Shown in pieces: positions 8,702 through 46,177 of a stretch of DNA of 59,698 bases (positions within the stretch are counted from its first letter, which is position 1; every line of letters starts with the position of its first letter). The position numbers were made by a program, and so were the translations under genes. The stretch spans positions 1-59,698 of the IMG/VR virus record IMGVR_UViG_3300037054_000205; one strand, 5' to 3'. The stretch comes from a virus. The notes beneath the pieces were generated by a model, which searched no databases, was not told the DNA's origin, and saw only the letters and a list, made by a program, of their open reading frames with translations.

Positions 8702-10303
8702 ATGAGCAAAAATCTTAGATTCGGGAAAGAGGCACGCGAGGCTTTATTGCGAGGAGTGGATTTTCTCGCCAACGCAGTGGCAATTACTGAAGGGCCGCGC
8801 GGCAGATGTGTTATTCTCGGGCAGCGCGTGTTGGGGCAGAGCCCTAAGGTGACGAGAGACGGGGTAACGGTGGCTAACTATGCCGACCCATCAGACCCTA
8901 CGGAGCAACTTGGGGCTGACCTCGTCCGCGAAGCCGCGCAGAAAACTGACAACGCGGTAGGCGACGGCACCACTGCGGCAATCGTATTGGCGCAGTCCAT
9001 GATTCACGAAGGCTTCCGACTGATTGACGCCGGGGCGAATCCTATGGCTATGGAGCGCGGGATTCACAAAGCGACAGACGCAATCATTGCCCGTTTAACG
9101 CAAATGGCAGTACCGTGCTCAGGTTCGAAAATTGCGCAAGTGGCGACGGTCTCGGCGCACGGTGATGCGCTTATCGGGACGCTGGTCGCTGGCGCGGTTG
9201 AGACGGCGGGCAAGGATGGAGTCGTGACGGTCGAGCCGTCCTCTACTTCTGACACGCGCGTGGATACGGTCGCCGGAATCGAATTGGAAAAGTCGAACCT
9301 CCTTCACAGTGCGTTTATTACACATCCCGAGGATATGATAGCCCAATGGGAAGACTGCCGAATTTTACTTTGGGAAGGGGTGATTGCTACAGCAAGGTCT
9401 CTGGTTCCGATTCTCTCCCAGGTTAAGGAAGAGGCTGACAAACACAATGCGGTTCCGTTGCTGATTATCGCCGGGGGCTATGAGCAAGAGGCTCTCGCGG
9501 TCATCATCAAAGCCCGCCTCGGCATCGCGCTCCCCATCATCGCCGTGCGGATGGACGCCTATGGCGAACGCCGCAAAGAAGTGATGCGCGACATCGCGGC
9601 GTTGACGGGCGGCAAGGCGTACACCGAAGATATGGGATTGAAGATTGAGTCCATCAAGCTGGCGGACTTGGGTCGCGCGCGCAAAGTCATCACGAGCATG
9701 TCCAAGACCCAGATTATCGAAGGCCGGGGAAATCAATCCGAACTGGTGGGTCGCATCGACTATTTGCGCCAGTGCATCGACAACGCCTCCCCTGCGGAAA
9801 GAAAACCGCTACAACAGCGTCTCGCGGCGTTGTTGGGCGGCATCACCATTATCAAGGTCGGCGGCGTCACAGTCACCGAAATGGAAGAGAAGAAAGACCG
9901 GGTCGTCGACGCCATGTCGGCTGCGAAAGCTGCAGTTGAATCTGGAATCGTTCCTGGCGGCGGCACCGCGCTTCTCCAGGCGTCGGTTGTCCTGGCGGGT
10001 TTGAAAACGTCCGTCGAGGAGCACGCCGGAATCCTCGTGGTATGGAATGCTTGCCGTGCGGTGGCGAAACAGATAGCCGAGAACGCGGGCATTGACGGTG
10101 ACGTACTGTTGACTCAGTTGATGGCGACCTCAACCCTGGGGTACAACGCACTGTCCGGGGCCTTTGAGGATTTGGTGGAATCTGGTATAATAGACCCTGT
10201 GAAAGTAGTGTGCGAATCGCTCAAAAACGCCTCGGCAGTAAGTTGTAGTATCCTCACTATGGGGGCCACCGTGGCGGAAGTGGCTATTAAACATGAATCG
10301 TAA
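8702..10303 (+). CDS. groEL: Phage-encoded chaperonin GroEL (HSP60), 533 aa
   Basis: Full-length group I chaperonin: N-terminal KNLRFGKEAREALLRGVDFLANAV, ATP-site motifs GPRGR, TRDGVTV and VGDGTTAA, an apical domain, and the C-terminal PGGGTALL and AGIDG stretches. It folds proteins in a GroES-capped ring using ATP. It is slightly shorter than the usual 545-550 residues and lacks the Gly-Gly-Met tail. GroES is encoded just downstream, separated by a homing endonuclease gene. Phage chaperonins usually serve capsid folding, and the packaging module follows immediately. The upstream Shine-Dalgarno is weak. Confidence 0.95.
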   Translation: MSKNLRFGKEAREALLRGVDFLANAVAITEGPRGRCVILGQRVLGQSPKVTRDGVTVANYADPSDPTEQLGADLVREAAQKTDNAVGDGTTAAIVLAQSMIHEGFRLIDAGANPMAMERGIHKATDAIIARLTQMAVPCSGSKIAQVATVSAHGDALIGTLVAGAVETAGKDGVVTVEPSSTSDTRVDTVAGIELEKSNLLHSAFITHPEDMIAQWEDCRILLWEGVIATARSLVPILSQVKEEADKHNAVPLLIIAGGYEQEALAVIIKARLGIALPIIAVRMDAYGERRKEVMRDIAALTGGKAYTEDMGLKIESIKLADLGRARKVITSMSKTQIIEGRGNQSELVGRIDYLRQCIDNASPAERKPLQQRLAALLGGITIIKVGGVTVTEMEEKKDRVVDAMSAAKAAVESGIVPGGGTALLQASVVLAGLKTSVEEHAGILVVWNACRAVAKQIAENAGIDGDVLLTQLMATSTLGYNALSGAFEDLVESGIIDPVKVVCESLKNASAVSCSILTMGATVAEVAIKHES

Positions 10304-26535: not shown

Positions 26536-26612
26536 TGCGGGGTAGTTCAGCCTGGAAGAATAGTCGGCTCATAACCGAAAGGTCGTTGGTTCAAATCCAA
26601 CCCCCGCAACCA
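26536..26612 (+). tRNA. tRNA with CAT anticodon (Met or lysidine Ile)
   Basis: Acceptor TGCGGGG/CCCCGCA, D stem GTTC/GAAT, anticodon stem GTCGG/CCGAA with one mismatch at 27-43, loop CTCATAA, T stem GTTGG/CCAAC, discriminator A and an encoded CCA. Position 1-72 is a T-A pair and there are no GGG:CCC anticodon-stem pairs, so it is not a standard initiator. It could be elongator Met or a tRNA-Ile2 needing lysidine. It sits alone, directly after late element 9. Confidence 0.93.
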
Positions 26613-28437: not shown

Positions 28438-31400
28438 ATGGCCAACGGCGACCCAACAACGACTCCGACCGTGACTCCCCCCGCTGCCCCGGCAGCGCCT
28501 GACGCCACCCCTGCGCCTACTGACGAAGGGCTGCTGCATTCCTTCGCTACTGGATGGGGAGTTGACCCCGAGGCTGTCAAATGGGCGGCTAAGACTATTT
28601 GGAATGACCCCATCGGGTCGGCCAAAGCCATAGGCGGCGCGCAGGTAGACGAACTCAAACATGCATTTACGCACCCGATAGAAGCCGCGAAGGAAGTAGG
28701 GGAGGGGGTAGTGTCCGCCGTCACCCCGAACCCTGATGCGGTAAAGACGGCGCAAGCCCACCTACACGCACCGGGGCTTGTCAATAAATTGGTGGGCGGC
28801 GCGGAGTATTTGACCAGCGGCGTACCGTTGTTCGGTGCGGCTGGCGTCAAGGCCGAGGAGCAGGGCGCGAAGGGAAATATCCCCGGCATGCTTGGCACCA
28901 CGGCGGCTGTCGCCTCGCAAGTTTTCGCTGGCGGAAAAGCTGGCGAAGAATCGCCCAAACTTTCGAAGGAAACGAAGCTGGGGTCTGTTTCCCCCGAGGC
29001 TGGAAAAACTCCCGGCGAACTTGAACCGTTGAACCGTGCGAATGCGAAAACACTACAAGACCTGGGGTACTCCAACCAAACTATCACGAACTTGAATGCC
29101 ACCGAAGTTGACCATATTCTCAAGAACAACATTCCGGCACCCCCACGCGTCGACCTGACAAGCGAGGGCGCGAAAGAAGTCATGCCCGCCCCGCATATGC
29201 ATCCTCCCGCCGAAGATGTGGCGGCTACTGCTGCGGCTGCGGCGGAACCCGCAGACCTTCAGATGGGCGAATCTCGCAAAATAGATGTCCCGAAAGGAAG
29301 ACAGGGCTCGGACGCGCAGGTTATCCAAAAAGGGGGATGGCTCCTGCCTAATGGACAAAACTACGTGCATCCTGACCTTCACATGACTCATGGCGAATCT
29401 GCACTGGACGCGGGTTTTAGTGGACTTGGAGTGGTGAATCCATCCACCGGATTGGATATGCCCGATGCACTAACTGCGCGCATCCAGGCGTTGCGGAGTG
29501 GGGCCATTCGTTCTACTCTCGACCGAAAAGGAACGACCACCTTAGAGTTGTTTGGCATCACTGAAGAAAGTAAGCCGCGCTTGTTAGACGCGCTGGCAGT
29601 CGCACCGCCTCATAAGCCTGTATTTATTGCACATGCTGGAGGTAGAGGGGCCGAATTTCAAAACTCCAACTCAACCCAACAGTTTAGCAATCCCGCAGAG
29701 GCAATTGATTGGGTTGACCGCCAAGCAACGGTCAGTTCCATTCAGACAGGCGAGTCCAAGGGACCGTTAGCGAAACTCGGTATTGATACCACCACGCTGA
29801 AACCACCAAAGGGACAGGGACGGCGAGCCTTTGACCGCCCTGAGGGCGAGCCCGCAACAGGCGCGGAAGAAACTCCGACCACTGGGGCTACTTCAGACAA
29901 GGGCATCTTAGGCAGACTAGGCATTGACACCACTAAACTCCCGCCCGCGCCTGGGCAGGGCAGTCAAGCGTTTGACCGTCCGCAAGGAGGACACGCGGGC
30001 GGCGGCGTTGCGTCCCTCGAAGAATTGAATCGTCCTGGCCGCTTTGTTTCCGTTGACCGCGCGGGCACGACTAGTGACCAAGGAAAAACTCCAGACTTTA
30101 ATTTGCGTCCAGGCTCGGTCGGGTATCAAGTCAAGCCTGACGGCACGCACCAACTGATTGATGGGCAGGAAACTCCTACGCATAAAGCCGCCATTGAGAA
30201 TTACAAGCAGAACGTGTACCCGAGTCCTGCGCCCGAGCATCTCAACACCCTCGCCAAGCGCGGACAACTCGAAGGGCAGAGGTATAATCTCGGAGATATT
30301 GATGGCGCCACGTATCGCGGCGGCCTCGACCAATCACCGCGCCCGGGGTCCGAGGACGCGACGGACAAACTTCAGATGGGTGAGCGTCAATCACCGCTCA
30401 AGGAACCGTATACGGTTGAAGTGACGGACCAAGATGGAACCAAGCACACCGAGACGATTGAGGGATTCTCCTCGAAAAACGCGCTGGCGGCGGCGCAAAA
30501 ACAATTCCCGAACGGGTACAACTGGAGCCTCGCGTCAGGAAAGTCAGATGGACCCAGGACCCTGTCGACGGAATACACTCCCGGAACCAAGAAGCCCCTA
30601 TCCATGCGGGCTTCGAATACTGGCAGAACGGCGCGAGAGCGACGTGGGCATGAAGTCGGGCATGTAATGGAAGCGCAAGCGGTGGGGATAAAGCAACTTG
30701 GGATAGCGAGAAGTTCGCATCCAGATAATCGAGGAGATTATGACACCTTCGCCATCTTCTCAGGCGAAGGGGTATACGTTCCTGGGACGAGGGTCATCAA
30801 GCCGGAAAGGCGGATGGACGTCGTACGCCTTCTGGTGGGGGGCATCGCGAGAGATGAAGGCGCTGGATTGCATCGCGCTTCCAACCATAATTTCAGCATT
30901 AATCTTGAGGGTTCTGACGGTCATCAAGCCTACAGCATTTTGACGGCGGCAGACTACACGCATGAGAACGCAATGGACCGCATGAACCAACTCATAGACA
31001 TAGCTGCGGACCATCAGTCCAGACCTCACGTTGCCAGTGTCATCGAAGAGAATCTCGATACCCGCGAAGAGGGGCTATCTCGGCATTACGACTACAGTCC
31101 CGAGCGGTTGGATAATATGTGGGCTGAATCCCAGAGGAGAGCACAAAATGCAACCGAAAAGCGTGACGCTGCAGGAAATGGCGCAGGACTTGCTGAAGGA
31201 AGCCCAGAAAGCCTCGCCCGAGGAGAAAGCGGAATTTCGAAAGCAATTGGACCAGTATCTGAAGGACCAGATAGCGGCCCTGAACCCGGAGCAAAAGGCG
31301 AACTTTCTCAAACTCCAGGCGCAGAGAAAGAAGACCTCACCGCAGGAGCCAGCAAAGTAGCCCCCACTACAGGTGAGGAAGTGATTGCCAAACTAGAGAA

Positions 31401-34400
31401 ACCCCCTATCGGCTTCCAAGACGCTAAACCAATTCCGTATTCCTCCGACGCAGAGTTTACCAATCGAACCGCCCCTTCCATGATTCTGCCTGATGGCAGA
31501 ATTATCAACGCGCGGCTGGCTCATACTGAAATTGCGGCGGCTGCTGGTTTTAAGGATACTGGGTCATCGCTGGATAAAACGTACGTTTCTGGCGTAACCG
31601 CTTTTCAACGGGCAACCGGAGTGGTGCGAGTTATCTACCCCGAGCACGGCGGAAATATAGGCATTGAAATACACCAACGACCCTCTAATGACCAGTTAGG
31701 CATCATTGGAAAGAATCTAAAGAATGCGACTGCAGCGGGCAAGGGTGATGGTTCCCTGACGTGGGATTTGGCAGACGCTAACGGCAAATTCACATCGGGT
31801 CACGGGTCTATCGGGGATTTTCGGCGCGCGGTAGATACCGCTTATCTAGAGCAAGGTCTATCCAATCGCGTGAACTCCGCGCCCGTCACAAAGACGCCGA
31901 AACTACAAGCGGGCGAGATTAAAGGTGACGCTGTCGACAAGCCCGCTGCGACGTACCATGAAGCTGCCGCGACCGAAGGAAACCCGTGGGTGCGCCGTTC
32001 CGCTGACCCCGCCGACGACGCCGCCCCGACAAACAAGGGTCGGCAGGTAATGGTACAGTTCAGTTCTGACCTCATCAACAAGGACCTTCCGTCTGGCACA
32101 GGCGGGGCATATTATGACAAGCTGTACGGCGGCGCGCGCCCCGGCTACGCGCGCATGCAGGATACCTGGGAGATTCCGCAATGGATGGGATTTGCTTCCC
32201 ATGCACTGCCAAAAGCAGATGTCTATTTTGTCCGCGACATGGCGCAAGCGAAAAAGTTCTTGAACGAGGCGGGTTACGACCGCGCGCTCTTCAGCGCGCT
32301 GGACGTAAACACCCCGCTGATTAAGGAATTGGCGAAAGGTTACAAGGGCGCGGTGGACGTCGGCGGGTATCAGAAGCCTGGGACGTTCCTGGACAGCCCG
32401 AACGTCACGTACCATGCGTCTATCCAGGACATGATGAACCACCCCTACTATAAAGGGCAGGGCCTGGAATATAAGAACGGCACCGACTATCGGCACTTCG
32501 AAGGTTCTGATGTCATCCCTCGCCTGACCATGTCCGATGGCTGCTTGCACAAGTGCGCGTTCTGCGTGGTGGAAAAGAAGATTGACGTTACCCCGGAGAG
32601 CGTGGTCGACCAACAGGCTGAATCCATTGCAAAGCTCGGCGCGAAGCTGGTTTACCTGAATGACAAGACCTTCGGGCAAGCGTCAAACTATCAACATCTG
32701 TCCGACGTGTACGCGAAGATGAAAGAAGCGAATCCCGCGTTCCACGGCTTCGTCGTGCAGACCACTGCCGCCCAAATGGGCAAGATTCCTTCTGACTGGT
32801 TGCAGAAGTCGGGCATCAAGTATGTGGAACTCGGCATTGAAAGTTACAATGACCCCATCCTAAAGGAAATGCACAAGCCCGCGAACCAGAAACTGATTGA
32901 CGCGGCCACGCAGAAACTACGCGAGAACGGTATCGCGCTCATTCCGAACATCCTGGTCGGCTTGCCCGGCGAGACCGCGCAAACATACGCCAACACCCTG
33001 AAGTTCCTGCAGGATAACAAAGACATCATCTCGCACGCGAACATCTACAACCTCGCGCTGTATGAGAATTCAGAGTTGGGCAAGAAACTGACGACCGCCA
33101 ACCCCGACGACTTCAACGAGAACGTATTGGAGAAGTCATTCCACTCCGACCCCGCAGTGCATAAGCAGTTCGCGGGTGACCTGTACGGCGCTGCGCAGGA
33201 CATGTTAGACCAACCGCCCCCAAGCGCGACGAAGACGAATGAACCCGCTACGCTGCAGATGGGCTTTGCAAAACAGAAAGCTAAGGCTAAAGACCAAGCC
33301 CCGAAAATTACGGACATGACTGCGGAGGATTTGGCGTTCGACAAGAGGCACGCCGAGTTTGCTGCGCCCGATGCGGCTGCGGAAGAACCAGTGACGCCGA
33401 CTCGCGAAACAATCGTCGCCGCTAACGCCGACATTAAAGAGCGGCAGCGGATTCAAGACCATTTAGCAAAGGTGGATAAAAGAAATCAACCCGCCGAAGC
33501 TGCGGCTCCTGAAGTCGCGCGCACTGCCACGTCCCAAGAAGCCATTGCCAACATCGTCAAAAACAACGAGCATGACGATTACAAGGTTACACCCCCAGGC
33601 AAGGCCGTAGCGCGAGACGCTTATGGGTATTTGCTGGCTGATGGGAGTCTGGTCGAGAACGCCGACGATACCCGCGAGTACACCCATTCCCAACTTGCCG
33701 ACTTGTTGGACTGGGATGATATGAGGAACGCAAACGCCATCCGAACTAATGGTCCCGATAACATTGAGGTTCTGCATGACGCCCCGACCGAACAACAGCG
33801 CGGGGAAATAGCCCGATTCGTCAAAGAGGGCGGGAAAGACAAACTTACTTGGGACTTCCATAAAATCACAGACTTCGATGGCTACGAGAATTTTCTGCGC
33901 GGCTCAGATTCTCTATATGGCGGGGAAGACAAACCACCTCTCGAAAGCGGCGAAGGTAGCCTCGGGGATTTCCTGCGCGCGGCTGATAAGTTCTACAAGA
34001 AGCCCGAGCCAGTTTCTGGGGGAGCCTCGATAGGCGACCGTCTCCAAACTGGATTTGCGAAGACCAAGAAGCCTGCCGAGGCTGCGGCTCCTGAAGCGGC
34101 ACTGAAGTTCACGCACAAAACTTTCGGAGTCGATGACTCCATTGCCCGCGTGTCTGCGCTCGATGCCAAGGGAGAGGATGTCGGACACGTCACTTACGGG
34201 TTGCCTAAACCCGCGAAGCGCACGGGGGATTTCAGTGCCACGATAGCGATGGCGGCGGTTGACACTCCAGGTCAAGGTCTGGGCCAGAAACTTTATCTGC
34301 AAGCGGCGGATGCGGCGAAGACCAAAGGCGCGCGGTATTTGGTCTCCGACGTGGCGCACGGGGTGGACCCGTCCGCTGTTCGTGTTTGGGATGCGCTCGT

Positions 34401-36768
34401 GGCAAAAGGATATCCCGTAGAAAAGCTGGGCGCGAAGAACTATCGTATGGACCTTTCGAAATTTCAAACGCCATCGAATGCGGCTCCTGTCCAGAGTATA
34501 TATGAGAAAAAGGGAGCCCAAGAATTAGCAGACCATATCGGCGGAAGAGTGGTCGGGTCCGTCGCCACAAAGGGCGTCTCAACCCATGATTTAGATTTGG
34601 CGGTTGACACCTATGACCAACCTAAGATTGAAGCGGCGATGAAAGCCCGAGGATTTGAGCCGATAGGTAGTTCAGTAGTGTCTCCTGCCGAAGCAAAAAC
34701 ATCTGGTAAGACTTTTGGCGGCGATTCTGCCGACTGGAATCGAGCACACCATTTTGAAAATAACACGACGCAATCAAAAGCCTCGGAACCTCGGCGGAGG
34801 GTGGATATTTGGAGCAAAGAACCCGCTGAAAGCGATGTCATCGACCACATCAAGTCGGGCGGGCAGTTCGGTGTCCTGACCGCCGAGAACCCGCAGAACA
34901 GAACGCTGTCGGCGAAAGAGAACGCTACTCGCAACGAGGCCCTGCGCCAGCAACTGGAAGCGCGCGGACACGACCCAATCCAGTTGACTGGGCACTCCGA
35001 TGCGGTTGGCCCGGCGACGGAGAATCCCTTCTTTGTGAAAGACCTTCCTGCGGCTGAGACGGCGGCGCTGGGGCGCGAGCACGGACAACAGTCCGTCCTG
35101 ACGCATCAAGGTCTGCACGACCTGAACAAGGATGTGGTGAATCCGCTCGACCCGTCGCAAGGAATCATGACGGGTCCTGATGCCGAGAAGCAGAAGTATT
35201 TCTCCAAGCATGATGGACAGGCGTTCTCTGCACCAGTTAATTGGGATAAGACGGTTGCGCCGGAAGGAAAAGGGGAGTCTCTCTCTGGGGTTCCTGTTGT
35301 GAGCACGCGGGTGCCGCACGGGACCCTGAATAAAGTAAAGTTCCAGCGGCATGAAGATACAACCCGCATGTCCGACATGGAAGCAGCGACGGCGGCGCCT
35401 GGATATCTGCAAAAGATGATGGACAAGGTACACGATATTCCCGGGTTTGTCGCGCCGCAGGGCGGGACCATTCAGGAGCAAACCGAAGCCTTTATTCAGC
35501 ACGGGCTGGACAACATAATGTTCGTTCACTCTAAGATGACACCTGAAAAAATCGCACTGAACAAGCAGTGGTACCCGGTTGGAGCGCATGGACGCGGAAT
35601 CATTCTCGCGCATCAAAATGGGATTACGCCCGCGCAAGCCTACGGCATCACGTCGGTCGAGTCGCCGCTAACGGACTGGGACCAGAACACATCCTTGGCC
35701 GAGCGTACCGCCAGCATCTATCAGCAACAGCAAAACACGCGCTTCACGCCGGAAATGGCAAAAGCCGCCGACGCGATTCTTACCATACCCGCTATGGCAG
35801 GATTCAAAAAATCGTTTAGTTTGCTTCGCGGGAAGACTCTCGCCGAACTACCGGATATCGAGGATAAGGCATACTGGCTACGCATCTACGACGAAGCCCA
35901 CAACCCCCGCGAGTATATGCAATGGAACGCGGACGGCACCCAGGCGGGCATCGCTAGGAGCATGGACGGCACGCCAAGGGCAGTAGGCTGGAGTTTCTTC
36001 ACTCATATTGAGAAGGCAATCAGGATTGCCCAGGACGGGTCTCCAGAAAATATCAGTCGACAACTAGGGCTGAATCATAAGGTGCGGAACTTCTACAACA
36101 ACCAAGCCGACCCAGACAACCCGCGATACCTGACCATCGACACCCATGCGGGCGCCGTAGCGCAGTTGCGCCCGTTGTCGGGAGGGCATCCTGACATTTT
36201 CCACATCTTCGGGAATCCATCCAACAACGCGTTTGGTCTCTCTGGCACCTATCCGCTTTATGACGAGATGTACAGGCGGGCAGCGAAAAAACTTGACGAA
36301 CCTATCCCGAGCAGGGTACAATCGTCCGTATGGGCGGAGATTCGAGAAGTGTTCAACGACGATTTTAAGACGCCAGAGAATCTGGCCGCAGTAGACGCGA
36401 TTTGGAAGGAGTCGACCGATGGCAAAATCACAGCCGACGAAGCCCGAAACAGAATCTGGGACTTCGCAACTCGATGGAACAGAGAAGCTGCTGAAAAAGG
36501 GCGGGCTTCCGATAACCAGGGAAAACTATTTGCTCCTGACGTTTCTGGGACACCCGCCAGCGGAACCCCTGAGCGAGGAAATGGAGCAGGAGTTGCCCCA
36601 CCACCTGCAGCGGAAGAGGTAGGCGATACCTCGTTTGACTTCGGTGCGAACGTCAAGCCGGAAGCGGGCAGCTTCGGGCGGGCGCCGAAAAAGAGCAAGG
36701 CGAAAACGCAACTGAACGCCGTAGACCTCCTGAAGGCTTTGAGCAACCTGAAGAAACCCGCACGCTAG
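28438..36768 (+). CDS. Giant multidomain (polyvalent) phage protein, 2776 aa
   Basis: No stop over 8.3 kb. In order: a disordered N-terminus; repeat-domain copy 1 (about 300-430); two LGIDTTxLxPPxGQG phrases (about 447 and 495); an M41-like metalloprotease with His738-Glu-Val-Gly-His742; repeat-domain copy 2 (about 1013-1140); a radical-SAM region with Cys1369-x3-Cys1373-x2-Cys1376; repeat-domain copy 3 (about 1720-1860); a GNAT-like fold with GQGLGQK (1945-1951); a nucleotidyltransferase-like GS...DLD (Asp2051, 2053, and Asp2123); and a C-terminal phage domain with WYPVGAHGRG. The motif LQ(M/A/T)G recurs at 274, 645, 1156, 1606 and 1869 between domains. Such proteins may be carried in the virion and injected; this is family knowledge plus inference. 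Confidence 0.85.
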   Translation: MANGDPTTTPTVTPPAAPAAPDATPAPTDEGLLHSFATGWGVDPEAVKWAAKTIWNDPIGSAKAIGGAQVDELKHAFTHPIEAAKEVGEGVVSAVTPNPDAVKTAQAHLHAPGLVNKLVGGAEYLTSGVPLFGAAGVKAEEQGAKGNIPGMLGTTAAVASQVFAGGKAGEESPKLSKETKLGSVSPEAGKTPGELEPLNRANAKTLQDLGYSNQTITNLNATEVDHILKNNIPAPPRVDLTSEGAKEVMPAPHMHPPAEDVAATAAAAAEPADLQMGESRKIDVPKGRQGSDAQVIQKGGWLLPNGQNYVHPDLHMTHGESALDAGFSGLGVVNPSTGLDMPDALTARIQALRSGAIRSTLDRKGTTTLELFGITEESKPRLLDALAVAPPHKPVFIAHAGGRGAEFQNSNSTQQFSNPAEAIDWVDRQATVSSIQTGESKGPLAKLGIDTTTLKPPKGQGRRAFDRPEGEPATGAEETPTTGATSDKGILGRLGIDTTKLPPAPGQGSQAFDRPQGGHAGGGVASLEELNRPGRFVSVDRAGTTSDQGKTPDFNLRPGSVGYQVKPDGTHQLIDGQETPTHKAAIENYKQNVYPSPAPEHLNTLAKRGQLEGQRYNLGDIDGATYRGGLDQSPRPGSEDATDKLQMGERQSPLKEPYTVEVTDQDGTKHTETIEGFSSKNALAAAQKQFPNGYNWSLASGKSDGPRTLSTEYTPGTKKPLSMRASNTGRTARERRGHEVGHVMEAQAVGIKQLGIARSSHPDNRGDYDTFAIFSGEGVYVPGTRVIKPERRMDVVRLLVGGIARDEGAGLHRASNHNFSINLEGSDGHQAYSILTAADYTHENAMDRMNQLIDIAADHQSRPHVASVIEENLDTREEGLSRHYDYSPERLDNMWAESQRRAQNATEKRDAAGNGAGLAEGSPESLARGESGISKAIGPVSEGPDSGPEPGAKGELSQTPGAEKEDLTAGASKVAPTTGEEVIAKLEKPPIGFQDAKPIPYSSDAEFTNRTAPSMILPDGRIINARLAHTEIAAAAGFKDTGSSLDKTYVSGVTAFQRATGVVRVIYPEHGGNIGIEIHQRPSNDQLGIIGKNLKNATAAGKGDGSLTWDLADANGKFTSGHGSIGDFRRAVDTAYLEQGLSNRVNSAPVTKTPKLQAGEIKGDAVDKPAATYHEAAATEGNPWVRRSADPADDAAPTNKGRQVMVQFSSDLINKDLPSGTGGAYYDKLYGGARPGYARMQDTWEIPQWMGFASHALPKADVYFVRDMAQAKKFLNEAGYDRALFSALDVNTPLIKELAKGYKGAVDVGGYQKPGTFLDSPNVTYHASIQDMMNHPYYKGQGLEYKNGTDYRHFEGSDVIPRLTMSDGCLHKCAFCVVEKKIDVTPESVVDQQAESIAKLGAKLVYLNDKTFGQASNYQHLSDVYAKMKEANPAFHGFVVQTTAAQMGKIPSDWLQKSGIKYVELGIESYNDPILKEMHKPANQKLIDAATQKLRENGIALIPNILVGLPGETAQTYANTLKFLQDNKDIISHANIYNLALYENSELGKKLTTANPDDFNENVLEKSFHSDPAVHKQFAGDLYGAAQDMLDQPPPSATKTNEPATLQMGFAKQKAKAKDQAPKITDMTAEDLAFDKRHAEFAAPDAAAEEPVTPTRETIVAANADIKERQRIQDHLAKVDKRNQPAEAAAPEVARTATSQEAIANIVKNNEHDDYKVTPPGKAVARDAYGYLLADGSLVENADDTREYTHSQLADLLDWDDMRNANAIRTNGPDNIEVLHDAPTEQQRGEIARFVKEGGKDKLTWDFHKITDFDGYENFLRGSDSLYGGEDKPPLESGEGSLGDFLRAADKFYKKPEPVSGGASIGDRLQTGFAKTKKPAEAAAPEAALKFTHKTFGVDDSIARVSALDAKGEDVGHVTYGLPKPAKRTGDFSATIAMAAVDTPGQGLGQKLYLQAADAAKTKGARYLVSDVAHGVDPSAVRVWDALVAKGYPVEKLGAKNYRMDLSKFQTPSNAAPVQSIYEKKGAQELADHIGGRVVGSVATKGVSTHDLDLAVDTYDQPKIEAAMKARGFEPIGSSVVSPAEAKTSGKTFGGDSADWNRAHHFENNTTQSKASEPRRRVDIWSKEPAESDVIDHIKSGGQFGVLTAENPQNRTLSAKENATRNEALRQQLEARGHDPIQLTGHSDAVGPATENPFFVKDLPAAETAALGREHGQQSVLTHQGLHDLNKDVVNPLDPSQGIMTGPDAEKQKYFSKHDGQAFSAPVNWDKTVAPEGKGESLSGVPVVSTRVPHGTLNKVKFQRHEDTTRMSDMEAATAAPGYLQKMMDKVHDIPGFVAPQGGTIQEQTEAFIQHGLDNIMFVHSKMTPEKIALNKQWYPVGAHGRGIILAHQNGITPAQAYGITSVESPLTDWDQNTSLAERTASIYQQQQNTRFTPEMAKAADAILTIPAMAGFKKSFSLLRGKTLAELPDIEDKAYWLRIYDEAHNPREYMQWNADGTQAGIARSMDGTPRAVGWSFFTHIEKAIRIAQDGSPENISRQLGLNHKVRNFYNNQADPDNPRYLTIDTHAGAVAQLRPLSGGHPDIFHIFGNPSNNAFGLSGTYPLYDEMYRRAAKKLDEPIPSRVQSSVWAEIREVFNDDFKTPENLAAVDAIWKESTDGKITADEARNRIWDFATRWNREAAEKGRASDNQGKLFAPDVSGTPASGTPERGNGAGVAPPPAAEEVGDTSFDFGANVKPEAGSFGRAPKKSKAKTQLNAVDLLKALSNLKKPAR

Positions 36769-40765: not shown

Positions 40766-41038
40766 GTGACTCCAAGTACGGTTCGGTATCACCAACAGAA
40801 AGCGGCGCGGAGAGACGCAGGATTATGTCATATTCCTCGGTGCCCGCATCCTGCGCGTCCAGGACGGGTCGACTGCGAGCACTGCAGCATGATACAAAGG
40901 CGCCGCGATACCCGACGCGCGGACGCATTCGAAGCGCGCGGCATCGGCAGAGGAATTAGACCAGAGTGGGAAGCGAAACGGGCCGAGAACCTCAACGCCA
41001 TAGCAGTCAAAATTTTACAAGGGCAGGAGCAATTATGA
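40766..41038 (+). CDS. Small zinc-finger-like protein, 90 aa
   Basis: GTG start with GGAGGG upstream (an earlier in-frame TTG at 40760 is less well placed). [20 protein letters not shown] carries four Cys in a C-x4-C...C-x2-C arrangement, followed by a strongly basic helix and [14 protein letters not shown]. It is the intact paralogue of the broken copy at 38104. It overlaps recA by 4 bp; a DNA-binding role is plausible. Confidence 0.65.
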
Positions 41039-42045
41039 GCAGCAAAGATGAAGTTTCCACCAATCTCGATGACATCGTCGCCAAGATTGAAAAAGACCAC
41101 GGCAAGGGGAGCATCATGATGTTGGGTAGCAAGAAGTTTGCTCCCATCGACGTGATACCCACCTCTTCACTAGCTCTCGATGAAGCCCTGGGCGTCGGAG
41201 GTCTCCCGCGCGGGCGGGTAATCGAAATCTACGGGCCGGAATCGGGCGGCAAGACCACGCTGTCGCTGCACTGCATCGCCGAGGCCCAGAAGCTGGGCGG
41301 CAAGGCGGCGTTCATTGACGCAGAGAACGCCCTGGACCCTATCTATGCCCGCAAGTTAGGCGTAGATGTCGACCACCTCCTGGTATCCCAGCCTGACAAC
41401 GGCGAACAGGCTTTGGAAATTGCAAAGACCCTGATTGAGTCGGGCAAAATTGCTATCGTCGTCATCGACTCAGTCGCGGCGTTAGTCCCGAGGGCCGAAC
41501 TTGAAGGGGATATGGGAGACCCCCAGATGGGGCTGCAGGCCCGGCTGATGTCGCAAGCGCTGCGGAAGCTTACTGCCTTGACTAACAAGACCCGTACCGT
41601 TGTCATCTTCATCAACCAGATTCGGGAGAAGATTGGGGTCATGTTCGGCAGTCCCGAGACCACAACGGGAGGGCGCGCGCTGAAGTTTTACGCTTCCGTG
41701 CGGCTCGACATTCGAAAGACCGGGCCGATTAAAGACGGGGACAAAGTCATCGGGGCCGAAACCCGCATCAAGGTGGTGAAAAATAAGGTGGCCTCTCCGT
41801 TCTGCGTGGCCGAAGTCAAGATTCTGTATGGGCAAGGTATCTCCCGCGAAAGTGATTTGTTGACTCTGGGGGTCCTGCGCAACGTCATCGAAAAGAACGG
41901 GTCCTGGTTGTCGTATAAGGGCGAGAGAATTGGGCAAGGGGCGGAGCAGGCGCGTTTATTTCTCGTGAATCATGTTGACATCGCCACCAAGATTGATGTA
42001 GAATTACGGAATATAATTTTCAAAAAAGAGGTGACAGTTGATTAA
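41035..42045 (+). CDS. recA: RecA recombinase, 336 aa
   Basis: Start at 41035 in an ATGA overlap. Bacterial-type RecA with Walker A GPESGGKT (67-74), [20 protein letters not shown], the [16 protein letters not shown] loop and an acidic-to-basic C-terminus, slightly shorter than host RecA. It forms filaments on ssDNA and drives strand exchange with ATP. It sits with ERF-type annealing protein and SSB genes, so recombination-dependent replication is likely. Confidence 0.95.
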
Positions 42046-42664: not shown

Positions 42665-42900
42665 ATCGCTCTTCCGCCATAGACTCGGTTGTTCGAGAAT
42701 TCGAGTCGGCCATCTCACGGTACCCGGCATTTCATTCTGCGCACGAAGGATACGCCATCATATTAGAAGAAGTTGATGAACTCTGGACAGAAGTCAAGAA
42801 GAGCCCAAAGAAACGCGACCCTATTCTCATGCGAGAGGAAGCAATTCAAGTGGCCGCTATGGCTTTGCGATTTCTGATTGACGTATGCCCAAATGAATGA
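42661..42900 (+). CDS. MazG-like pyrophosphohydrolase, 79 aa
   Basis: It starts in an ATGA overlap. YAIILEEVDELWTEVKK and EEAIQVAAMALRFLIDV supply the EExxE and ExxD metal-binding pairs of the all-alpha NTP pyrophosphatase fold, in a minimal 79 residues. It would hydrolyse (d)NTPs to monophosphates plus pyrophosphate. It follows the DUF5664-like gene, so the two may be halves of one MazZ-like function. Confidence 0.78.
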   Translation: MNRSSAIDSVVREFESAISRYPAFHSAHEGYAIILEEVDELWTEVKKSPKKRDPILMREEAIQVAAMALRFLIDVCPNE

Positions 42901-42914
42901 CTAACGGAGGTCCT

Positions 42915-43331
42915 ATGCTTAAGGTTTACCTCGCAGCACCGTACCAGAAAAAAGAAGACATTCGAAATTATGCCAAGGAGCTTCGGTCCTTGGGTATCGA
43001 AGTGACTTCTCGGTGGATAGATGAACCAGACAAACCAAATGTTCAGTTGAAGGATGTAGATGCGGCGATGTTGCGACTCTACGCAGGACACGATGTTGCG
43101 GATGTGCAGGCGGCGGACGTTTTCGTACTGTTCACTGACCCCACGAAAACCATCATTCGCCAAGGTCGCACGGTGGAGTCGGGTCTGGCTATCGCGTTTG
43201 GTATGCCCATTGTAGCGGTTGGGCTTGAATTTGAAAATATCTTCCACTACTTGCCGCAATTCACCCACTTCGAAACGTGGTATGATGTCCGGGACAAACT
43301 TTACGCTATGTACGTGCAAGCCACCCAATAA
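42915..43331 (+). CDS. Nucleoside 2-deoxyribosyltransferase-like protein, 138 aa
   Basis: Start 42915 has AACGGAGGTCC upstream. The pattern VYLAAPYQKK, DVADVQAADVFVLFTDP, GRTVESGLAIAFGMPIVAVG and NIFHYLP matches the phage nucleoside 2-deoxyribosyltransferase / DUF4406 fold, with the Glu of VESG in the catalytic position. It swaps or cleaves bases on deoxynucleosides. Its neighbours are nucleotide-pool enzymes and DNA polymerase, fitting a precursor role. Confidence 0.8.
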   Translation: MLKVYLAAPYQKKEDIRNYAKELRSLGIEVTSRWIDEPDKPNVQLKDVDAAMLRLYAGHDVADVQAADVFVLFTDPTKTIIRQGRTVESGLAIAFGMPIVAVGLEFENIFHYLPQFTHFETWYDVRDKLYAMYVQATQ

Positions 43332-43906
43332 TGCGCCCCAGACCCCCATGGAAGTGCCCGCACACCACCAGACCCTATCGGGCTCTGGGGCTCTGCAATG
43401 CCTGCTATTTGAAACAAAACGGCGGAAGTAAGCGATGGTATGCTCGCCATCGGACCCAAATGATTCAAACAGCAACTCAGTGGAATAAAATCCACGGAGA
43501 ACGACGACGAGAAATTTCAAGATTGTCTGCGCGGCGAGTGTACCGCCGAGACCCCCAGAAAGCGATGCGTGCGGTGATGCTCGAATACCACACAAATTTG
43601 AATTATCACATCGCCTGGAATTTGCGGGCGAAAGTTCGCATGGCTCTCCATGGTCGGGCTAAAACCGCCTCGACCCTAAATTTGCTCGGGTGCTCGCTAG
43701 ACGACTTCATCCGGCACTTAGAATCTCTTTTTACTTTCGGCATGACATGGGAAAATTATGGTTTAAGAGGATGGCATATCGACCATAAGCGTCCATGCGC
43801 GTCCTTCGACTTAAGCCAGCCCGCTCAACAACGAGCGTGTTTTCATTACACCAACCTCCAACCGCTCTGGGCCTTCGACAACTTGTCTAAGGGGAACAGA
43901 ATATGA
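43331..43906 (+). CDS. HNH homing endonuclease, 191 aa
   Basis: N-terminal Cys/His knuckle (CPHTTRPYRALGLCNACY), a long basic helix, then LLGCSLDDFIRHLESLF, GMTWENYGLRGWHIDHKRPC and CFHYTNLQPLWAFDNLSKGN, the typical ending of a phage HNH homing family. It shares its first base with the previous stop and overlaps the DNA polymerase ATG by 4 bp, so it is inserted tightly upstream of the polymerase. Confidence 0.87.
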   Translation: MRPRPPWKCPHTTRPYRALGLCNACYLKQNGGSKRWYARHRTQMIQTATQWNKIHGERRREISRLSARRVYRRDPQKAMRAVMLEYHTNLNYHIAWNLRAKVRMALHGRAKTASTLNLLGCSLDDFIRHLESLFTFGMTWENYGLRGWHIDHKRPCASFDLSQPAQQRACFHYTNLQPLWAFDNLSKGNRI

Positions 43907-46177
43907 ACCAATCATACCTGTTCCTTTGACTTCGAAACATTCTCTCTTCTCGACTTGACCGAGGTGGGTCTCGATAACTACGTTAATCACCCCTCAACAG
44001 GCGTCTCGATGCTCGGCTGGGCGTTGGACAAAGAAGATGTGGAGTTGTGGTTCCCGCACAAGGGACCCATGCCGCAGAAACTGCTCGATGCCCTGCTGGA
44101 CCCCGCCATCATTAAAGTTGCTTGGCATGCCATGTTCGAGTGCATGTTTATGAATCGTGTAGTCTTCGGCCCTCGGTACGCGGCGGGGGACCACCAAGTC
44201 CCCATTAGTGAATACCGCGACCCCATCATTCTGGCGCGCGCGTTGTCGCTTCCCGGAAAACTGAAAACCGTCGCGGAAGTTCTGCAAATGCAGAATCTGA
44301 AAGACCCGCGCGGGGAAGAACTGATGCAGATGTTCTGCCAGCCCGTCAGCCTGGGCGGGGAAATGACGTTGTTCGGGATGACCACGCCGCTCTTCCGAGA
44401 CCATAACAGCCACCCGCGCGAATTTGCCGAGTACGGCGAGTACTGCAAGCAGGACATACGGACAGAACGAGACCTCTGGTACCGCCTGCTGCAGATTCCG
44501 TTTCCAGAGATTGAATGGCAGGGATGGCTTCTGGACCAGAAGATTAACTCCTTTGGAATACCGGGGCGCAGGGACCTCGCCGAAAAAGGGCTGCGGCTTG
44601 CGCTAAAGTGGTTAGGAATCCAGAAAAAGCTTCTGAAAGAGAAGACCGGGTTGGCGAATCCCAACTCCGATGCGCAGTTTAAGGTGTGGGCTGCGGAGCG
44701 GGGGTATCGCCTAAACTCTCTTCGCGCGGAGACCGTAGCCGCCGAACTCAAAAATCCCGAAGCCCAGATAACTCAGGAATGCCGCGAAGCCTTCGCGTTG
44801 CGGTCTTCTGCCCGCAAGTCGTCTTATACAAAAATCGAGAAGTTCTTGAGTCTTCTGTCTACCCTTGATGACCGTCTACGCTACCAGTTTAATTACATGG
44901 GCGCATCGCGGACAGGGCGTTGGAAGAGCGGTGGCGGGGAAGATGCATCTATGCAGGTGCAGAACCTCGCGCGCGGGGTGAAGGCGGTCAAGAAGAAACT
45001 GGCATTGGCTCTAAAACTTTTGGAAGCGGAAGATTACGACGGAATTGTGAAGGAATTTACGAATACCAAAGACCCGAAGGATTCCATCACCATCATGGAG
45101 TTTGTCATCACCCTTCTGCGGTCGCTGTTCCAAGCCAAGCCAGGAAAGAAATTTCTCGTTGCTGATAAGAACGCTATCGAAAACCGCATGCTGGGCTGGG
45201 CGGCGGGATGCGAGAAGATTCTGGAGGTTTTCCGCCGAGGCCGCTGCCCCTACATGTCTTTCGGCGCGGAACTGTTTGGAATTCCATACGAACAATGGTG
45301 CCGAGTCGAGAACGGGGTTCATAAACCTAAGCCCGAATTTGAAGAGCGTCGGCAGCAGGCGAAAGCACCCGTACTCGGCGGGGGATACGGTCTCGGCGGC
45401 GGCGACAGCTACATCGACGAATACGGCGACGAAAAGCGTGGTGGGCTGTGGGGATACGCGCTGAACGTCTGTGGCGTCGATATGCCCAGAGAGTTGGCGC
45501 ATAAAGCCGTCAAGATTCTGCGAGAGACTTGGGTTGAGGTTCCGGTCTTTTGGACAGACCTCGAAGAGGGGTTCAAACAGGTCCTAAAGCGCGGCGGGTC
45601 TATCAGCGTCGGAAAGGTAACCTGGAATAAACACACCGAGGAGTGGGTCGAGCACCCCACCCACGGCAAGCAGTGCGTCATCACCTTTCGACGCATCGCG
45701 ATGGGGAACGGGAAATATACGATTCGGATGGAACTGCCGTCCGGGCGGGCTCTGCATTACCTGAACGCCACGATTGAGGACGAACAGCGCGTTAGCAAAA
45801 AGACGGGGAACCCCTACACCTCGCATACCATTTATTACGACGGCATCGAACATAGCGCGACCCAGGACGCGGCGGGCAAGACACAGAAGAAACACCACAA
45901 ATGGGGCCGGGTCAAGACGTACGGCGGCAAGCTGGCCGAGAACGCGGTCCAAGCTATGTCGCGGGACGACCTTTTGAACTCTATGTTCCTGGCCGATGAG
46001 ATGGGGTTTGACATTTGGGGTCTCTTTCACGACGAACTCGCGGTCGAAGTCTCCGACGACATGTTCGGGCTGCGGCTGGAAGACCTAATTTGGTGTTTTG
46101 TTCAGATTCCGTGGTGGGCTCCGGGGCTCCTCCTGGGGGCCGAAGGGTACGAGTCGAAAGTTTACAAGAAAGGCTGA
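43903..46177 (+). CDS. polA: Family A DNA polymerase, expressed through a probable +1 frameshift, 757 aa
   Basis: The ATG at 43903 overlaps the HNH stop (ATGA). Zero frame reads MNQSYLFL then TGA at 43927. A +1 shift at CTT-TGA-C gives MNQSYLFL-DFETFSLLDLTE, restoring the 3'-5' exonuclease metal ligands Asp9 and Glu11. Later motifs are VADKNAIENRMLGWAAG (palm motif A), AKAPVLGGGYGLGGG (O-helix region) and LFHDELAVEV (motif C). It should copy the phage genome with proofreading. Without the shift, the first in-frame start (TTG 43955) loses the exonuclease ligands. A sequencing error is the alternative. Confidence 0.85.
43921..43930 (+). other. Programmed +1 frameshift site candidate
   Basis: TTC CTT TGA C: CTT TGA C is exactly the slippery heptamer of bacterial prfB (release factor 2). 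Leu-tRNA on CTT can slip to TTT and the next codon becomes GAC. No Shine-Dalgarno-like stimulator lies 3 bases upstream as in prfB; the nearest is the initiation AAGGGG about 30 bases earlier. Confidence 0.7.

Follow-up and report, generated by a model that had tools for sequence, protein, structure and literature searches.

How can a phage DNA polymerase be translated when its only well-placed start codon leads into a stop after eight codons? This question is raised by the polymerase gene of the virus record IMGVR_UViG_3300037054_000205, of which a stretch of 59,698 nt (hereafter, the window) was analyzed. An initial annotation had proposed a programmed +1 frameshift of the kind used by bacterial prfB, the gene of release factor 2 (RF2), with a sequencing indel as the open alternative. 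The features discussed below are collected in Table 1.

Table 1. Features at and around the polymerase start, in window coordinates
Feature	Positions	Strand	Basis
Nucleoside 2-deoxyribosyltransferase (dNDT) gene	42897..43331	+	Pfam PF05014, 2.6e-7
HNH/endonuclease VII-like ORF, 191 aa, between dNDT and polymerase	43331..43906	+	PHROG 1035 endonuclease VII, 4.5e-9
Shine-Dalgarno AAGGGG for ATG 43903, spacing 8 nt	43889..43894	+	Anti-SD duplex -6.2 kcal/mol, window and L035 alike
Predicted RNA hairpin	43890..43927	+	Outer stem AGGGGAACAG 43890-43899 with CUGUUCCUUU 43918-43927; inner UAUGA 43902-43906 with UCAUA 43912-43916
Zero-frame leader ORF MNQSYLFL, 8 codons; putatively the polymerase's own N-terminal strand	43903..43926	+	Homology scoring
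Putative +1 frameshift heptamer CTT TGA C	43924..43930	+	Sequence; identical in L035/L043
Body of the DNA polymerase (family-A like, phrog_17), with exonuclease motif DFET at its start	43928..46177	+	Open for 749 codons; PHROG 17, 8e-79

Two reading frames at the polymerase start

Re-reading of the sequence confirmed the initial description of the frames exactly. The zero frame from ATG 43903 reads ATG AAC CAA TCA TAC CTG TTC CTT TGA C, with TGA at 43927-43929, and the ATG shares an ATGA with the stop of the upstream ORF (43331-43906). The +1 frame starting at GAC 43928 (first residues DFETFSLLDLTE) remains open for 749 codons up to TGA 46175-46177. ATG 43903 also held up as the only well-placed start: after the upstream stop (43904-43906) the polymerase frame reads ACC AAT CAT ACC TGT TCC TTT GAC, with no ATG, GTG or TTG before GAC 43928, and its first mechanical start is TTG 43955, located 3' of the DFET motif. 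The junction, in frame with ATG 43903, is indeed the prfB heptamer CTT TGA C, and no second CTT TGA was found among the 31 predicted window genes. The prfB-type internal Shine-Dalgarno sequence approximately 3 nt upstream of CTT, noted from the outset as missing, was absent here as well as in the second carrier described below, as pairing of AAUCAUACCUGUUC just 5' of CTT with the anti-SD yielded only +1.0 kcal/mol in both.

Homology along the full length and the presence of the DFET motif identified the gene product as a phage DNA polymerase of the family-A type, equipped with a 3'-5' exonuclease. It shares 59-75% identity with 11 metagenomic phage homologues, and tblastn against Casjensviridae family-A polymerases gave 100% coverage at ~32% identity. 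The Pfam DNA_pol_A match was sub-threshold, a PDB profile search returned no match, and the AlphaFold model (mean pLDDT 52.5) was uninformative. A zinc-ribbon-like insert (CxxC...CPKCGG) is present in the polymerase domain of several relatives (L016:3001-5292, L018, L019, L022 and L025) and absent from the window protein.

The DFET/DYET residues are conserved in all polymerase relatives, and in those with a continuous frame a hydrophobic strand directly precedes them: SYLFI in L018, EFLFL in L023, QYLFM in L025 and KILFL in L015. With a scoring matrix built from 10 in-frame relatives, the zero-frame SYLFL of the window ranked in the top 8e-5 (0.008%) of all window 5-mers, compared with 0.38 for HTCSF, its polymerase-frame counterpart. 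YLFL-DFET of the window aligns with SYLFI-DYET (L018) and EFLFL-DYET (L023), and L023 has CCTT-GAC where the window has CCTTTGAC. Because SYLFL matches the first strand of the in-frame relatives, and would thus be the polymerase's own, the gene carries one extra T. As read from these alignments, the predicted N-terminus of the polymerase is in the zero frame and its body in the +1 frame, with the frame change falling exactly at CTT (T) GAC.

A divergent second carrier of the heptamer

The same arrangement was found in a second contig, IMGVR_UViG_3300010343_000018 (L035; L043 is the same contig). It carries ATGATTCAATCATACCTGTTCCTTTGACTACGAAACC, with the same ATG start and ATGA overlap, an eight-codon leader that differs in one amino acid, and an identical CTTTGAC. 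The two polymerases share 79 of 137 aligned residues (~58% amino acid identity), and since only 33 of these 79 shared residues are encoded by identical codons, they must have been separated for a long time. The leader from CTAAGG to GACT is nevertheless identical at 42 of 45 nt (93%), against 71% over the next 76 nt, and the six leader codons common to both genomes are all identical (P ~0.0035 at the rates of the polymerase body). The polymerase frame of L035 is open for 138 codons to the contig end, 416 nt into the gene; the openness of the frame in both genomes (749 codons in the window) is as expected of an expressed gene. An ORF that can be read in more than one frame and consists of many short tandem repeats like KLGDGVKLGYGVTLG lies elsewhere on L035 (1351-2097) and is absent from the window at that place.

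Retention of the heptamer in L035 while its flanks drift supports a programmed +1 frameshift as the reading of the polymerase start. The expectation that CTTTGAC would be conserved among relatives was borne out for L035, but not for ~20 other polymerase relatives, which have a continuous frame without CTTTGAC. The heptamer is carried by two genomes only, the window and L035, and because the remaining relatives are in frame, the putative frameshift trait is lineage-limited. Pattern scans of viral contigs for CTTTGAC joined to DFET/DYET coding recovered L035/L043 and otherwise unrelated chance matches; genomes of bacteria and archaea, scanned twice, yielded no close relative, a plasmid search gave distant polymerases only, and a DNA-level search of phage records produced no match.

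These data bear directly on the possibility that the true genome reads CTTGAC, an ordinary in-frame gene disrupted by a sequencing or assembly indel. Most relatives are in frame (e.g., CCTT-GAC in L023) and both carrier contigs are metagenome assemblies, as this explanation would predict. Against it, two contigs that are independent and differ in their flanking DNA have the identical extra T, this T forms a pair with A43890 in a hairpin that both carriers have, the T run is only three long, and the remainder of the 749-codon frame is undisturbed. Moreover, when one-base insertions were simulated at the starts of 30 window genes, CTTTGAC arose as the new stop junction in 0 of 6840 cases. Given the extra T in both contigs, the divergence of the leader-sharing L035 and this simulation, a shared sequencing error is very unlikely, and we assign the indel explanation a correspondingly slight chance.

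The second carrier also argues against translation from TTG 43955 or a later codon, which would leave a polymerase without its first exonuclease motif and the 8-codon ORF as a regulatory leader only. While TTG is a possible start codon, no Shine-Dalgarno sequence was seen there by inspection and the codon is CTG in L035, so that in both genomes the catalytic DFET/DYET lies 5' of any usable start. The conservation of these residues in all relatives further makes such a truncated product highly improbable.

In the polymerase tree the two carriers were grouped in 0% of bootstraps, yet their grouping was not rejected (AU p 0.106), and so one ancient origin followed by losses and a transfer of the leader are both possible. 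The leader may therefore have spread by recombination or transfer, as judged from this tree.

A hairpin leader next to an endonuclease gene

The initial annotation correctly singled out a heptamer that is kept in L035, but overlooked two features, the hairpin across the leader and, upstream of it, the HNH endonuclease gene, which may explain much of the leader conservation. The predicted hairpin has a minimum free energy of -17.2 kcal/mol in the window (z -3.71) and -15.9 kcal/mol in L035 (z -3.79), and no comparable fold was found in ten in-frame relatives. Its repeat occurs as a single copy in the window and in none of 100 shuffles (0 expected). All three leader differences between the window and L035 fall in the loop and internal loop, and the T of TGA forms the outermost pair, with A43890. 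The hairpin is an alternative or additional reason for nucleotide conservation in the leader, and alone could explain it. An Rfam search gave no match. The hairpin lacks a trailing T run and was not called as a terminator, and an apparent third copy of the pattern (L097) was dismissed as chance, being located on an unrelated contig without a polymerase.

Since the hairpin buries the AUG together with its Shine-Dalgarno sequence AAGGGG and the slippery CUUU, initiation would require it to be opened, for which ribosomes coming from the upstream ORF are the simplest candidates. Stimulation of the shift by RNA structure was also considered. Downstream structure was not significant in the window (z 0.58), and in L035 the signal was weak (z -1.22). 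A hairpin that refolds upstream of the site can imitate an internal Shine-Dalgarno sequence at CUUUGA on 70S ribosomes (PMC6321510); with a ribosome positioned on the site, the inner stem is the only portion of the leader hairpin able to refold, and it reached only -1.6 and -2.3 kcal/mol, and because of these low values such mimicry is given little weight, as a weak possibility.

The gene ending at this leader retains an intact, conserved HIDH...YTNLQPL...N motif, shares its frame with the polymerase and stops at TGA 43904-43906. In most in-frame relatives (L014-L022 and L024-L026) dNDT homologues lie directly 5' of the polymerase, and no HNH endonuclease gene was found 5' of the polymerase in in-frame relatives. 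L035 has at this position a 17-codon ORF (2926-2979, MRPRQPWRCEHTKGNRL) that matches the window HNH protein at its start (MRPRPPWKCPHT) and at its end (KGNRI), i.e., the first 12 and last 5 codons of the gene, and keeps the ATGA overlap. By its sequence, this mini-ORF is consistent with an in-frame HNH deletion that preserved the Shine-Dalgarno sequence, hairpin and ATGA junction. Unlike the leader, the ORF start is identical at only 24 of 36 positions between the window gene and the L035 remnant, making it less likely that the unit as a whole was transferred very recently. None of the HNH relatives elsewhere precedes a polymerase with a CTTTGAC hairpin leader.

Two further explanations draw on this layout. 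As the upstream ORF and the polymerase share a frame and are separated by a hairpin, as in T4 gene 60 bypassing (PMC3014915), stop readthrough or hairpin bypass might join the endonuclease to the polymerase in one product (in L035, the polymerase would carry a 17-residue leader). However, the polymerase-frame HTCSF misfits the N-terminus of the family, which the zero-frame SYLFL fits, no matched take-off and landing codons are kept in both genomes, and the base following the upstream TGA differs (A vs. T); we consider such a fusion scarcely credible. A real frameshift mutation that left the leader as a recombinant or endonuclease-linked scar, with the polymerase made by background CUU UGA slippage and nothing programmed or regulated, deserves more weight, though it too is unlikely. 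It would be in line with a CTT site lacking a Shine-Dalgarno stimulator, with an HNH gene or remnant at the junction in both carriers and not in relatives, and with carriers that do not group in the polymerase tree. Yet such a scar must have persisted through 42% amino-acid divergence, or been transferred, with no one-base deletion of a T to revert it, and with the leader codons and heptamer kept exactly.

Proposed translation and comparison with known recoding systems

The reading we prefer, and regard as probable from the sequence comparisons, is that the DNA polymerase is produced by an obligatory +1 frameshift at CTT_TGA_C, codon 8, within a translationally coupled, endonuclease-linked hairpin leader and without the internal Shine-Dalgarno sequence of prfB. 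Ribosomes finishing the HNH ORF would melt the hairpin, re-initiate at ATG 43903, which overlaps the HNH stop (ATGA), read MNQSYLFL and stall at UGA, with a poor C at +4. Peptidyl-tRNA-Leu would then slip from CUU to UUU and translation would resume at GAC, giving MNQSYLFL-DFETFS..., with non-slipping ribosomes releasing an 8-residue peptide. In the prfB context CUU_U is reported to be the most efficient shift site, and UGAC a weak stop (PMC5009743). Slippage itself, its efficiency, the translational coupling and any RF2 dependence are what we infer here; a low efficiency may suffice for a polymerase.

The site resembles prfB in its identical CTT_TGA_C early in the gene, a functional domain encoded wholly in the +1 frame, and a short dead-end zero-frame peptide. 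It differs in that the gene encodes a phage DNA polymerase and not RF2, in its position at codon 8/9 instead of 25/26, in its location at the end of a hairpin, and in lacking the internal Shine-Dalgarno sequence that prfB has 3 nt upstream; for this last reason it was not classified as prfB-type in the full sense. Every +1 case with CUU before a stop in the RECODE set is prfB (PMC10885494), and our literature search found no report of a CTT_TGA_C shift in a phage polymerase. On the strength of the RECODE set, its use in a phage polymerase therefore appears to be new. Phage +1 frameshifts at the codon before UGA are known from Listeria phages PSA, A118 and A500, where they occur at CCC_UGA near the end of tail genes and give a second product (PMC5009743); the polymerase shift differs from these in being near the gene start and, as proposed, obligatory.

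In layout, the locus is analogous to T4 mobA/gene 60, where an HNH homing-type endonuclease lies beside a hairpin recoding element that sits in the 5' portion of an essential replication gene, the element being needed only in the carrier phage (PMC3014915, PMC2988022, PMC5009743). The window HNH gene likewise adjoins a putative hairpin-bearing recoding element and was not found before the polymerase of leader-free relatives. Here, however, the ribosome would slip forward by a single base at a stop codon, as opposed to the 50-nt hop of gene 60, and the putatively mobile HNH gene ends at the polymerase start instead of splitting a gene. By this analogy, a mobile leader (HNH gene, hairpin with Shine-Dalgarno sequence, start and slippery site, and CTT_TGA_C) might have captured polymerase starts, so that synthesis would depend on endonuclease translation and RF2-sensitive slippage, as a second independent mobA/gene 60-like case; we advance this only tentatively and think it doubtful. 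A second likeness of layout is to T4/RB69 gene 43, which is autoregulated and has an upstream translational operator hairpin bound by the polymerase (PMC3014915), as a stable hairpin is predicted at the polymerase ribosome-binding region here (z -3.7 in the window, -3.8 in L035). The window hairpin, in contrast, contains the Shine-Dalgarno sequence, ATG and shift site, the polymerase is of another family (family-A like), and binding by a protein is hypothetical.

If slippage does occur, use of the prfB heptamer would extend beyond RF2 autoregulation. The efficiency of UGA termination would then gate a replicative polymerase, without the internal Shine-Dalgarno sequence thought to be needed and beside a homing-type endonuclease, and would offer a second natural case for studying the co-evolution of mobile endonucleases and recoding signals.

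Elsewhere in the window, a full RecA with C-terminal domain (40966-42045; PF00154, 3.7e-131) is encoded 5' of the replication genes and a Cpn60-family chaperonin at 8702-10303 (PF00118, 3.8e-58). A single ORF of 2776 aa occupies 28438-36768 on the plus strand, and the one tRNA gene detected in the window, tRNA-Met (CAT), lies at 26536-26612.
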